Assembly (NCBI GenBank): GCA_030024065.1
Contig: JASEIE010000193.1
Location: 1 to 7,973 of the forward strand
Source of the DNA: Thermodesulfobacteriota bacterium
GTDB taxonomy: Bacteria; Desulfobacterota; BSN033; UBA1163
Length of the DNA: 7,973 nt
Direction of reading: 5' to 3'
Shown one piece after another: positions 1 to 7,973 of the stretch; within the stretch, counting starts at the first letter, position 1, and each line of letters begins with the position of its first letter. Below the pieces are notes generated by a model that worked only from the letters and a program-made list of their open reading frames with translations, was not told the DNA's origin and did not search any database. A program made the position numbers and the translations under genes.

Positions 1-90
1 TCCACTACCCGGGGGTTGATTATTGTTCGGAAAGTCAGGAGACCTTCCACTACCCCGGGGTTGATTATTGTTTGGAAGGTCAGGAGACCT
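1..90 (-). repeat. Two tandem 45-bp repeats, in frame within the RAYT gene
   Basis: Positions 1-45 and 46-90 are the same 45-bp unit, differing at three positions (11/56, 28/73 and 33/78). Because 45 is a multiple of three the unit adds 15 codons without disturbing the frame, encoding RSPD(L/F)PNNNQP(R/P)GSG. Each unit holds a REP-like hairpin. The repeat lies just after the HUH motif, where RAYT-like proteins often have a loop of variable length (family knowledge). More copies may continue left of the window. Confidence 0.9.
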
Positions 91-336
91 GCTGTTACCC
101 AGTGATTCACAAATCATGTGAATATGATCGGGCATGACAATAAATCCTTTTAGTTTAAAATCCCCTCGTTCTTCATAGAACAACAAAGTGCTTACAGCCG
201 CTTTAGCAATGGCTTTGTACTTAAATACCTCAACACGCTTATTTGTGACCATCGTAATAAAATGGTAGCCTTCGTTATATTTTCGTTTTTTCGATGGCAG
301 GTCAGGAGACCTGCCGCTACCCATTGGTCTATCCAT
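1..336 (-). CDS. REP-associated tyrosine transposase (Y1_Tnp / RAYT), 5' part, runs off left edge
   Basis: This is the N-terminal 112 codons of a single-strand DNA transposase of the IS200-like Y1 (HUH) superfamily, read without a stop from the ATG at 336 to the window edge. The diagnostic piece is residues 65-75, FIVMPDHIHMI, whose His71 and His73 form the HUH metal-binding pair; before it, residues 22-64 (EGYHFITMVTNKR..., ...FYEERGDFKLKG) fit the usual strand-helix-strand start of the fold. The catalytic tyrosine helix lies beyond the edge. Starts at 339 (GTG), 336 and 324 (both ATG) are in frame and none has a clear ribosome binding site. The peptide GSGRSPDLP near the N terminus recurs twice after the HUH motif because REP-like hairpins are embedded in frame. 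The gene begins 17-20 bases after the coxS stop, where a molybdenum-subunit gene might have been expected. Family assignment is confident; whether the protein is intact is not known. Confidence 0.85.
   Translation of the reverse strand, partial: MDRPMGSGRSPDLPSKKRKYNEGYHFITMVTNKRVEVFKYKAIAKAAVSTLLFYEERGDFKLKGFIVMPDHIHMICESLGNSRSPDLPNNNQPRGSGRSPDFPNNNQPPGSG
29..53 (-). repeat. REP-like unit C: GTAG foot plus 8-bp hairpin with one mismatch
   Basis: Minus-strand GTAG at 50-53 precedes GGAAGGTC-TCCT-GACTTTCC (29-48), an 8-bp stem with a single mismatch (33 against 44). Orientation and loop are identical to units A and B. Another GTAG foot at 5-8 shows that a further unit begins at the left edge of the window. 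Confidence 0.65.
74..100 (-). repeat. REP-like unit B: hairpin with GTAA foot
   Basis: The same core as unit A, AGGTC-TCCT-GACCT (77-90 on the minus strand), with only the 5-bp inner stem preserved. The foot tetranucleotide is GTAA instead of GTAG. It encodes SRSPDLP of the RAYT loop. It looks like a decayed copy. Confidence 0.6.
296..322 (-). repeat. REP-like unit A: GTAG foot plus perfect 8-bp hairpin
   Basis: On the minus strand GTAG (317-320) is followed by one base and then by a hairpin with a perfect 8-bp stem: GGCAGGTC (minus, 308-315) and GACCTGCC (296-303) around a TCCT loop (304-307). A GTAG tetranucleotide at the foot of a palindrome is the recognised architecture of REP sequences mobilised by RAYT proteins. 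The unit overlaps RAYT codons 5-14. Confidence 0.75.
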
Positions 337-356
337 CACTGTTTCGTGCTTCGAAT

Positions 357-824
357 TTATAATTGTCCGCTTACTGCTTTAATCGCCTGGATGATCTGAA
401 GATAACCGGTGCAGCGACAGAGATTTCCTGCGATCCCTGTTCGAATCTCCTCTTCCGTGGGTTTTGGGTTTTCATCGAGAAGGGCCTTGGCAGAGAGAAC
501 CATCCCGGGCGTACAGAAACCACACTGGATGGCTCCATATTCAATAAAAGCCTTCTGGATGGAGTGAAGGTTACCCTGGACATCGGTCAGGCCTTCAATC
601 GTTGTGACAACCTTTCCATCCGCCTCCAGCGCGGGCAGGATACAGGAGTTAACGGTCTTTCTATCTACCAGGACAGTGCAGGCGCCGCATTCACCCATGC
701 CACATCCTTCCTTTGTTCCGGTGAGTTCTAATTTGTCTCTTAGAAGCTGCAGGAGGGTGAGGTGGGGTTCGATCTCGACCTGAATGGGCTCTCCGTTCAA
801 AATAAAATGGATGGCTCTCTTCAT
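357..824 (-). CDS. 2Fe-2S subunit of a xanthine dehydrogenase/CO dehydrogenase-type molybdenum hydroxylase (CoxS/XdhC-like)
   Basis: This 155-residue protein is the small iron-sulfur subunit that passes electrons from the molybdenum site to the FAD subunit. It has both expected domains: an N-terminal plant-ferredoxin-like cluster with Cys41, Cys46, Cys49 and Cys61 (EGCGMGECGACT), and a helical C-terminal domain with Cys101, Cys104, Cys136 and Cys138 (QCGFCTPGM ... GNLCRCTGY). Length and motif spacing are normal for the family. The start at 824 is preferred over the longer open frame to 890 because AAGGAGA (832-838) lies 7 bases upstream and the fold begins right there. It follows coxM in the same direction after a 162-bp repeat spacer. 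No catalytic large subunit is seen after it. The substrate cannot be told from this subunit; the family includes aldehyde, purine, nicotinate and aryl-CoA hydroxylases or reductases. Confidence 0.95.
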   Translation of the reverse strand: MKRAIHFILNGEPIQVEIEPHLTLLQLLRDKLELTGTKEGCGMGECGACTVLVDRKTVNSCILPALEADGKVVTTIEGLTDVQGNLHSIQKAFIEYGAIQCGFCTPGMVLSAKALLDENPKPTEEEIRTGIAGNLCRCTGYLQIIQAIKAVSGQL

Positions 825-986
825 CTGGGAATCTCCTTCAGCCTGATTTAAATTCCAATCACCAAATCCCAAACTCCAAATAATACCCAATTACCAATAC
901 CCAAATAACCAAAAAATGCGATCCATTGGAGCTTGGTTATTGGAGCTTATTTGATGTTTGGTTATTGGTTCTTGGTGATTTATTAC
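825..986. repeat. CAA-rich degenerate repeat spacer between coxM and coxS
   Basis: This 162-bp gap holds no gene. Its left half is made of degenerate CCAAAT/ACCCAA units and its right half of the complementary TTGG/GGTTATTGG type, so it can fold back on itself. An outer inverted repeat AATCACCAA (857-865) / TTGGTGATT (972-980) is exact. TTGGTTATTGG occurs twice (933-943, 958-968), and TTGGAGCTT occurs at 926-934 and 940-948. The only clear functional signal is the coxS ribosome binding site near 832-838. Spacers of this kind recur in some Desulfobacterota genomes, in my recollection. Confidence 0.7.
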
Positions 987-1958
987 CTACCACAGTCTCA
1001 CCGGGAAAATCGTTTCTTCCGGTCTTAATATCCTCTCGATACATCTCATGGCCATGCGTTTCACCAGGACCTTAATCATGTCCCTGCGGTACCAGGCTTC
1101 TCCGCGTATAGAGTCTCTGGGCTGGGCTTCCTCAGAGGCCGTGAGAGCCACTTTTTCAAGGAGCTCATCACTTAGCTTCTTACCACGGAGGAAATCCTCG
1201 GCCTTTTTTGCCCTGATGGGAGTGGGAGCAGCCACTCCCAGAGCAATCCGGATTTCCTTACAGATCAGCTCATCTTCCTCGAGGGAATGGAGGACTGTGG
1301 AGATAGGGGAAGTGTTGCAGAGGAGGTCCGGGCAGGTGACAGTTGATTTATCAAGAGAGAGGAGGACAGCAACCCCAAGGATAGGAAGGTCGAGGGCCTG
1401 TCTTCTCTGGTGTTTCCAATAAGCAGAGCCTGTGTTGGGAAGGGGTTTTGGAATGACAATCTCTGTGAGGATTTCGTCCTGCTGTAAGAGAGTCTCTCCA
1501 GGTCCGGCAAAGAACTGCTCCATCGGAATCGTTCTTTCAGACTTCGAACTCTTCAGCTTAACCTGCGCACTTAGGACAAGAAGGGGGGCGGCTGTATCGG
1601 CAGAGGGGGCGGCTGTACAGATATTGCCGCCAACCGTTGCCACATTCCGGATCTGAACGGAGCCGAGGACATCGACGGCATCGGTCAGAGCAGAAAATTC
1701 TTTCCTGATTCTTTCTGACTTTTCAATGGCACGATGAGTCACCATCGGGCCAATCCTGAGCATTCCGTTATAATCAATTTGACCCAATCCCGGGACCCCT
1801 TGAAGGGAGATGAGGATATCCGGAAACAGCTTCTTCTGCTTGATCATGACGATGACATCCGTGCCTCCTGCGATGAGCCGGGCCTTATTTCCGTATCGAT
1901 TTAAGAGGGAAAGAGCCTCATCAAGGGTCTTGGGTTTAAGGTAGTCAAACCTTTTCAT
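987..1958 (-). CDS. FAD-binding subunit of a xanthine dehydrogenase/CO dehydrogenase-type molybdenum hydroxylase (CoxM/XdhB-like)
   Basis: This 323-residue flavoprotein subunit takes electrons from the 2Fe-2S subunit. FAD-binding signatures are present: LIAGGTDVIVMIK (28-40) and RNVATVGGNICTAAPSAD (104-121). The C-terminal CO-dehydrogenase flavoprotein domain is seen at 239-292 (ALGVAAPTPIRAKKAE ... WYRRDM). The start at 1958 is chosen because GGAGGT (1963-1968) precedes it; the upstream in-frame ATG at 1970 overlaps that site. The gene begins 20 bases after dctM, so the two are probably co-transcribed. It is longer than the usual 280-300 residues: about 27 extra residues (205-231, with Cys209 and Cys214) sit between LLSLDK and the LICKEIRIALG strand, and the C terminus has a short extension. 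It lacks the Cys-rich loop after the GGN motif that carries the 4Fe-4S cluster of 4-hydroxybenzoyl-CoA reductase beta subunits, so it is not that subtype. Confidence 0.92.
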   Translation of the reverse strand: MKRFDYLKPKTLDEALSLLNRYGNKARLIAGGTDVIVMIKQKKLFPDILISLQGVPGLGQIDYNGMLRIGPMVTHRAIEKSERIRKEFSALTDAVDVLGSVQIRNVATVGGNICTAAPSADTAAPLLVLSAQVKLKSSKSERTIPMEQFFAGPGETLLQQDEILTEIVIPKPLPNTGSAYWKHQRRQALDLPILGVAVLLSLDKSTVTCPDLLCNTSPISTVLHSLEEDELICKEIRIALGVAAPTPIRAKKAEDFLRGKKLSDELLEKVALTASEEAQPRDSIRGEAWYRRDMIKVLVKRMAMRCIERILRPEETIFPVRLW

Positions 1959-4983: not shown

Positions 4984-5029
4984 GTTTTTATTAAGTTCCA
5001 CCACCTCCTTTCAATCATTTGTGAATGGT

Positions 5030-5104
5030 GATTCGTGAATCGTGGTTCGTTTTCCATAATTCAAAACTCATAACTCATAACTCATAACTCATAACTCATA
5101 ACTC
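5030..5104. repeat. Intergenic repeats between paaK and dctP, including a 7-bp tandem array
   Basis: AACTCAT is repeated five full times and once in part at 5065-5104 (period 7). Beside it is a degenerate GATTCGTGAATC-type segment with the short inverted repeat GATTC/GAATC (5030-5034 / 5037-5041). The array begins 4 bases from the paaK stop codon, so it would be the 3' untranslated part of paaK. No classical terminator is visible there. Confidence 0.85.
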
Positions 5105-6483: not shown

Positions 6484-6629
6484 GTAATGCCCCAGTTATG
6501 GGGGAGATTTTTATAATATATGTAGCGCCCTCATTTATTGAGGGCGGAGTCCGTCGGCAATAAATGCCGACGCTACGGGGAAAAAGGAATAACTCCATAA
6601 CCAATAATTACCCATAACTGAGGGATTAC
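6484..6629. mobile_element. Complete 146-bp MITE with 19-bp terminal inverted repeats and 8-bp target duplication, IS66-like ends
   Basis: The left end GTAATGCCCCAGTTATGGG (6484-6502) and the right end CCCATAACTGAGGGATTAC (6611-6629) are inverted repeats, identical at 17 of 19 positions. They are flanked immediately by an exact 8-bp direct repeat TACAATTT (6476-6483 and 6630-6637), the mark of a transposition event. No protein is encoded, so it is a non-autonomous element. Ends starting with GTAA and 8-bp duplications are the known pattern of the IS66 family, which makes an IS66-type transposase the most likely mover (inference). The interior holds a 55-bp structured dyad. The element fills most of the gap between the exporter gene and the paaK promoter. 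Confidence 0.85.
6522..6576. repeat. 55-bp dyad with two stem-loops inside the MITE
   Basis: An outer stem GTAGCG (6522-6527) / CGCTAC (6571-6576) encloses two hairpins: GCCCTCA-TTTAT-TGAGGGC (6527-6545) and GTCGGCA-ATAAA-TGCCGAC (6553-6571). The loops are complementary, and CATTTATTG (6532-6540) is the exact reverse complement of CAATAAATG (6558-6566). The whole segment is symmetric about position 6549. It may be a separate palindromic repeat nested in the MITE. Confidence 0.8.
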
Positions 6630-7718: not shown

Positions 7719-7726
7719 AGGTGGTT

Positions 7727-7973
7727 ATGGAAGAGACTTTGGAAAGCTTGGAGGCCAAGAGAAAGTCTTTGTACCGGAAGCTGGAAGAGGTTGGGGATTT
7801 GAGGCGTGGGATTATTTCTGTTAATTATCGAAAGTGCGGGAAGAAAAACTGCGTTTGCACCAAGCCAGGGCACCTTGGCCATGGGCCCCAGTATCTCTGG
7901 AACACGACGATCAAAGGCAAGAGCTATGCGAAGAGCTTAAAAGTGGGTCCGGAGTTACAGAAGTACATGGAAG
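7727..7973 (+). CDS. DUF6788-type protein, 5' part, runs off right edge
   Basis: Eighty-two codons are visible. An N-terminal charged helix (MEETLESLEAKRKSLYRKLE) is followed by the conserved core LRRGIISVNYRKCGKKNCVC (26-44) and TKPGHLGHGPQYLWNTTIKG (45-64). This matches my memory of the family called DUF6788, whose members are small, function-unknown proteins often found in many copies next to transposase genes. Cys37, Cys42, Cys44, His49 and His52 could bind zinc (inference). AGGAGGT (7716-7722) precedes the ATG at 7727 with proper spacing. The strong promoter, the opposite strand and the damaged-looking neighbour suggest part of a mobile element, but no transposase or element end is visible here. 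Confidence 0.75.
   Translation, partial: MEETLESLEAKRKSLYRKLEEVGDLRRGIISVNYRKCGKKNCVCTKPGHLGHGPQYLWNTTIKGKSYAKSLKVGPELQKYME

Follow-up and report, generated by a model that had tools for sequence, protein, structure and literature searches.

How REPs move and why RAYTs persist so long are open problems, and the gene described here bears on them: enzyme and presumed DNA target are united in it, and their joint change can be followed. The window (the whole 7,973-nt stretch analysed, contig JASEIE010000193.1 of a Thermodesulfobacteriota bacterium) begins with the 5′ part of a RAYT (Y1_Tnp) gene, in which a first, sequence-only reading had noticed REP-like hairpins. The question is whether these hairpins truly belong to the coding sequence and, if so, how a transposase gene came to contain them. 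The reading preferred here, to which a probability of roughly 60% is given, is that this RAYT carries its own REPs turned into coding modules, spread by entry into a loop, by repetition of units and by exchange between arrays.

Hairpin Units in the Window Frame

The minus-strand frame at 1-339 is uninterrupted for 113 codons and runs off the left window edge. It matches PF01797 (Y1_Tnp, E 5.3e-06), and its nearest homologue, P0001, covers 75% of the frame at 89% identity. The combination that marks a RAYT/REPtron enzyme, a Y1_Tnp domain with an HUH motif, is present: PF01797 is found in both the window frame and P0001, and the frame reads PDHIH. The motif (MPDHIH in translation) lies at 118-135 on the minus strand, and its PDHxH columns are invariant in the alignment.

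Three complete hairpin units are embedded in this frame, all on the minus strand and all read in frame, and the in-frame hairpins of the window RAYT gene are confirmed as a real observation. The N-terminal unit (295-320) has a GTAG foot, an 8-bp stem and the loop TCCT, and encodes GSGRSPDLP. Beyond the HUH motif, loop unit 1 (73-98) has a GTAA foot, a broken outer stem and the peptide GNSRSPDLP, and loop unit 2 (28-53) has a GTAG foot, two G-T pairs in its stem and the peptide GSGRSPDFP. Loop unit 3 is truncated by the window edge to its foot (GTAGTGGA, 1-8, minus strand), recognized by its sequence and by the register of the repeat. The units follow the pattern GTAG (once GTAA)-NNNN-AGGTC-TCCT-GACCT or come close to it. 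The sequence-only reading was right about the unit at the frame start, the single orientation and the GSGRSPDLP-type peptides; its AGGTC-TCCT-GACCT hairpin applies in full to 295-320, the loop units departing from it as described, and its "repeated" loop units amount in the window to two complete copies and one cut at the edge. Allowing up to 3 mismatches, GTAGNNNNNGGTCTCCTGACC matches the window three times, against a mean of 0.04 in shuffled windows, and none of 200 shuffles reaches 3. The palindrome lies fully inside the frame and is read in frame, as in in-frame intragenic (RPE-like) REPs. Hairpin and linker together form a tandem repeat of 45 bp (1-90, minus strand), with copies at 1-45 and 46-90 that match at 93% and have no indels; the proposed frame-keeping period is seen for these two copies. 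Because 45 is divisible by three, units can be gained or lost without breaking the frame.

Anatomy of the Full-Length Genes

The window shows only the 5′ end hairpin, and the tyrosine helix and stop codon fall beyond its left edge. A protein search gave 15 homologues and a second search, with a profile built from ten of them, gave 82; the latter is to be read as at least 82, only the 7995 candidates sharing most words having been scored. Relatives' DNA was taken from genome contigs of Syntrophaceae (L001, at 83%), Nitrospinae (L002), Schekmanbacteria (L003) and one deltaproteobacterium, whose RAYT gene is divided between two contigs (L004 and L005). A phylum-wide DNA search for more family members gave 2 of 395 genomes, both already in the set. 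The plasmid collection, searched by tblastn with the window frame, returned 12 records, every one below 60% identity, and neither a relative nor a pattern match was found in viral_contigs with a protein profile and the unit pattern. Each of the genomes G001 to G004 has one RAYT gene, present as two pieces in G001 and in G004.

The sequence-only reading expected an extended frame to reach the tyrosine helix. In the full-length relatives it does, crossing the array and reaching the tyrosine motif, while the window ends before it. The order in L001, L002 and L003 is N-terminal REP, HUH strand, loop, Y.Y.NP motif and C-terminal FGSGDPKLP, the last being degenerate in L002. Read on the reverse strand, a second REP (B, core GGGTCTCCTGACCC) yields FGSGDPKLP; in the relatives, REP A and an inverted REP B bracket the gene, and both are protein-coding. 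GTAG-foot hairpins of opposite orientation stand at both gene ends in L001, L003 and L125 and at the 3′ end in L004, B being degenerate in L002. The coding inverted REP at the C-terminus and the N-terminal arrays are features beyond those of the earlier reading, as are the in-frame hairpins in a different loop of unrelated RAYTs and the in-frame REPs of other genes described below.

Y149 and N153 are invariant in the relatives and fall, in alignment, on the YIYINP stretch of E. coli TnpA-REP (4er8), which we take to hold the catalytic tyrosine of that enzyme. Among solved structures, 4er8 alone is matched by sequence (E 7.6e-09), and it is also the top fold match (E 1.4e-08).

The contigs of the window, L004 and L005 all end within the array, which would suit an assembly artefact in which dispersed repeats were misassembled. 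However, complete array-bearing genes lie in longer contigs (22.3 kb for P0047, 12.5 kb for P0045 and a 35-kb contig for L001), and array proteins are present in several source collections, which leaves an artefact with almost no credit.

Two kinds of relative differ from this plan. L125 (1477-1842, genome G404) is a decayed RAYT copy that lacks, in frame, the stretch from the HUH loop to the tyrosine motif and keeps both end REPs. P0051, P0053 and P0054 are RAYTs with 0 loop units and with REP-like N-terminal peptide repeats, some of which read FGSGDPKLP.

Unit Number in the Loop after the HUH Motif

The loop could be parsed in 66 of the 82 homologues (16 were not parsed), and frame-broken arrays are under-counted in this sample because protein databases contain open frames. 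One to eight units are present in 48 parsed loops, and 18 have none, 17 of these being loops of 9 residues. In all 48 unit-bearing loops the last unit ends one residue before the same helix. The 60 spacings between units measure 14 residues (40 cases), 15 residues (16), 12 residues (3) and 29 residues (1).

The expectation that loop length would change in steps of the unit is borne out by whole-unit differences among homologues and between near-identical pairs. Comparable cores were available for 47 of the 82 proteins, and 17 pairs reach 95% identity or more outside the loop; unit number differs in 12 of them. P0007, P0018, P0017 and P0016 share at least 97% identity and hold 1, 2, 3 and 4 units, respectively; P0017 (loop of 42 residues) and P0018 (28 residues) have identical cores. 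In a tree built from 57 of the 82 rows, presence of the loop requires 3 changes, a single origin being possible, and unit number requires 22. Recent events could be counted from such differences between alleles. Going from zero units to one lengthens the loop by 5 residues, whereas a REP measures 26 bases; therefore, either no clean insertion took place or trimming followed. No loop unit is present in L003 or in its protein, P0049, which retain the REPs at both ends.

Under the preferred reading, the frame takes in the REPs of both gene ends, A being N-terminal and inverted B C-terminal. Another copy of REP A would have entered the flexible stretch that links the HUH strand to the following helix, where added residues would spare the fold. 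There it would have multiplied as hairpin plus linker (45 bp in DNA, 14 or 15 residues in proteins), partly through repetition in place and partly through exchange with the N-terminal array, and units would be gained and lost while selection maintains the enzyme core. Bacterial transposases tend to act close to where they are made, and for this reason the RAYT itself may have placed the first unit into its own gene; later growth would be due to slippage or recombination. We infer that the RAYT protein still binds the units, as we do for any role that the units may have. The sequence-only reading had offered two alternatives, self-insertion of the substrate or a loop built by REP expansion. Growth by repetition of hairpin and linker holds, and loops without a REP exist; the framing of the two as mutually exclusive does not hold.

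AlphaFold models agree with a tolerant loop to the extent that the array is predicted to be disordered. P0001 has a mean pLDDT of 84, with low termini and a dip at the loop, and in P0047, with eight loop units, the core blocks score about 92-98 and the array about 38-50.

Linkers and Probable Exchange between Arrays

The linkers bear on how the units multiplied. Adjacent 45-bp units of L004 have identical linkers, and whole-unit repetition is therefore indicated. In L001 an identical 19-nt linker occurs in the loop and at the N-terminus, and in P0045 the linker NNNHPS is likewise found at both sites. L005 is a weaker case, its N-terminal and loop linkers differing at 2 of 19 bases; its 36-bp loop unit resembles a noncoding array located 3′ of the gene in L004.

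These data also weigh on a passive account, in which a REP turned coding by accident and slippage at hairpins copied it, the loop being tolerant and RAYT activity irrelevant. Neighbouring units with identical linkers resemble local repetition, the predicted disorder of the array fits, and REPINs often occur in tandem copies according to the accessible text of PMC8049555. However, the same linker at two separate sites of the gene (L001, P0045) requires exchange beyond slippage. In addition, other RAYTs carry hairpins at a different loop, and the hairpin pair of one of them (L176) recurs in its genome. Passive growth is thus judged rather unlikely, if deserving of serious attention.

Conservation of the Hairpin DNA and the Peptide

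The conserved units could owe their persistence to the protein or to the DNA. Core synonymous distances among L001, L002 and L003 exceed 1 or are saturated. In the comparisons of these three, synonymous changes number 2/14, 2/17 and 0/15 in REP codons vs 57/111, 47/93 and 35/100 in the core (p 0.010, 0.003 and 0.005; the three comparisons share sequences). Between these distant lineages the REP codons appear nearly frozen at synonymous sites. One of the seven pairs that include the window or L125, which extend over the 5′ part only, has p < 0.05. The changes within the N-terminal unit concern the base behind the foot and one stem pair, which differs on both sides. Core dN/dS is 0.14 (window-L001), 0.11 (L001-L005) and 0.16 (L001-L004), and 0.40 for window-L005, where it is based on 8 changes. 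Judged from such substitution patterns, the enzyme core is shown to be under purifying selection and the hairpin to be conserved as DNA.

An account in which the GSGRSPDLP repeats function in the protein, through DNA contact or oligomer formation, and the hairpin is a by-product of codons could draw on the fixed end point of the array in 48/48 loops. It could also draw on the unit next to the helix, the best kept of all, with 8.47 of 9 matches vs 6.74 for the preceding unit, although this gradient could come from either protein constraint or polarity of growth. Random codons for the peptide, however, produced foot and stem in 322 of 200,000 draws, synonymous sites are almost frozen, and the 18 of 66 relatives without a loop unit look active. 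Selection of the peptide is accordingly regarded as improbable.

Hairpins kept as DNA, and located at both ends of the gene as well as inside it, might also act as a control device, with RAYT production limited when the RAYT or the ribosome encounters them in the mRNA or DNA of the gene itself. Such control is compatible with the preferred reading of coding REP modules. As an explanation it is very improbable, as unit number ranges from 0 to 8 among relatives and varies between near-identical genes, which fits a dose-tolerant or unselected trait.

REPs Elsewhere in the Genomes

The hairpin unit was also expected elsewhere in the genome, and it is present in the genomes of four relatives and of a fifth. 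With up to 2 mismatches, the A/B pattern occurs at 12, 21, 38 and 24 places in G001, G002, G003 and G004 (the gene itself included), against 2, 1, 7 and 0 places for a reversed control pattern. Within the class of G001, at up to 1 mismatch, two gene-holding genomes have 11 and 24 places; among 21 class mates without the gene, 19 have none and two have one. The gene itself, or its edge, accounts for many of the places (7/11 in G001 and 15/24 in G004, where the split gene may count twice), and the dispersed REP population is therefore small. G404, which holds the decayed copy L125, has 25 REP places, and G403, G405 and G406 have none.

Around chosen dispersed places, 38 stretches were examined over the four genomes. 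The REP lies outside frames of at least 100 codons in 30 and inside one in eight. REP pairs are found in 18 of the 38, with feet facing each other in 13 and in the opposite arrangement in 5. Five of the eight REP-holding frames match Pfam families (PutA, UvrA, ABC transporter, SAM_HAT and GspH) with the REP in frame, except that in the ABC transporter frame the REP may precede the true start. One element is read in frame in unrelated genes of one genome, as with RPEs, in G002 and G003. In G002 an in-frame REP pair lies within UvrA (L161, 784-833), and in G003 an in-frame REP (L142, 1492-1513) supplies GGSGRSPDLPF between the two enzyme domains of PutA.

In-Frame Hairpins in Other RAYTs

Comparable arrangements occur in other RAYTs. 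In loci L006 to L080, 29.9 kb of RAYT interior contain 8 hairpins with stems of at least 10, vs 12 in 397.7 kb of the other frames at these loci. The individual hairpins of distant RAYTs described below were taken without a chance filter, and chance may account for those of L054 and L060; in L019 and L021 the stem includes the foot. As read from translations, the hairpin lies clearly in a second loop, which extends from the helix after the post-HUH loop to the WQ motif, in 9 of the 12 RAYTs inspected. The L006 protein (35% identical) has its hairpin, with the foot GTAT, in the same loop as the window.

Several of these hairpins recur around their gene or in its genome. That of L035 is present at both flanks and at 8 exact genome places, five of them on the RAYT contig, with none in nine other genomes. 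That of L019 is also at both flanks and has 18 genome places at up to 1 mismatch vs 4 in nine other genomes, its 3 exact places all being at the RAYT. Hairpin pairs are held by L024, L175, L176 and L179. Within 800 kb of its genome, the L176 pair has five further places, and this hairpin repeat is variable among the protein relatives of L176; for the L172 and L179 hairpins, no second copy was found in 800 kb of their genome. The search covered 800 of about 1300 kb of G414, and one hairpin had 17 matches in it.

It is tentatively suggested, with somewhat less than even confidence, that a self-substrate within the coding sequence is a recurrent RAYT property. In several unrelated families, REPs or whole REPINs would have inserted into either of two permissive loops, the protein growing by taking in its target. 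If so, their in-frame entry would cause enzyme and cognate hairpin to be inherited as one piece.

Relation to Known Systems

The closest known system is the REPtron, a RAYT/TnpA-REP gene with GTAG REPs, as described in the accessible texts of Nunvar 2010 (PMC2817692) and Di Nocera 2013 (PMC3733652). The likeness includes a Y1/HUH enzyme closest to 4er8 and GTAG-foot hairpins in opposite orientation at both ends, recurring in gene-holding genomes. By contrast, the end REPs of the present relatives lie inside the frame, and coding REP arrays occupy the post-HUH loop. Flanking sequences that overlap RAYT gene ends are noted in the accessible text of PMC3733652, as are in-frame REPs in many genes. 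These in-frame intragenic REPs, like Rickettsia palindromic elements, are palindromes tolerated as protein inserts, single or grouped, as here, and UvrA is a host gene both in that text and in G002. The present case differs in that the host gene is the presumed cognate transposase and in that copy number changes by whole units between near-identical genes.

IS200/IS605 transposases use hairpin substrates. The TnpA proteins of IS608 and ISDra2 have the same fold (matches to 2xma, 2a6m and others), but TnpA-REP is the only sequence match here as well as the best fold match, and the end hairpins here are inverted. In the accessible part of PMC8266576, the GTAG foot and the loop are important for cleavage and the inverse strand is unprocessed.

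In-frame REPs in other genes are thus known. No REP inside a RAYT frame was found in the literature as far as accessible, which included PMC3733652, PMC6006769, PMC2817692, PMC8266576 and PMC8049555. The array shows a route by which mobile hairpins create new protein sequence. RAYT-driven gain of REPs is directly testable in this system, because the enzyme and its presumed substrate share one gene and alleles one unit apart exist at an identical core.

Gene Neighbourhood and Other Features of the Window

In the window, genes for the 2Fe-2S and FAD subunits of a molybdenum hydroxylase lie upstream of the RAYT gene (1-1970). In L001 (4802-7504) the RAYT gene is located between the 2Fe-2S and molybdenum subunit genes, the third subunit following the RAYT. 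An Rfam match to mir-247 in window 1-1000 scores 27.9, against a gathering score of 70, and was taken as chance. Short intergenic arrays of 7-bp repeats are found at 850-980 and 5017-5104. A second, different GTAG...CTAC hairpin pair (GTAGCGCCCTCATTTATTGAGGGC and its partner) lies between genes at 6522-6576 and is likely a REPIN of another family. At the right end, 7721-7972, an open frame matches DUF6788 (E 7.2e-18).
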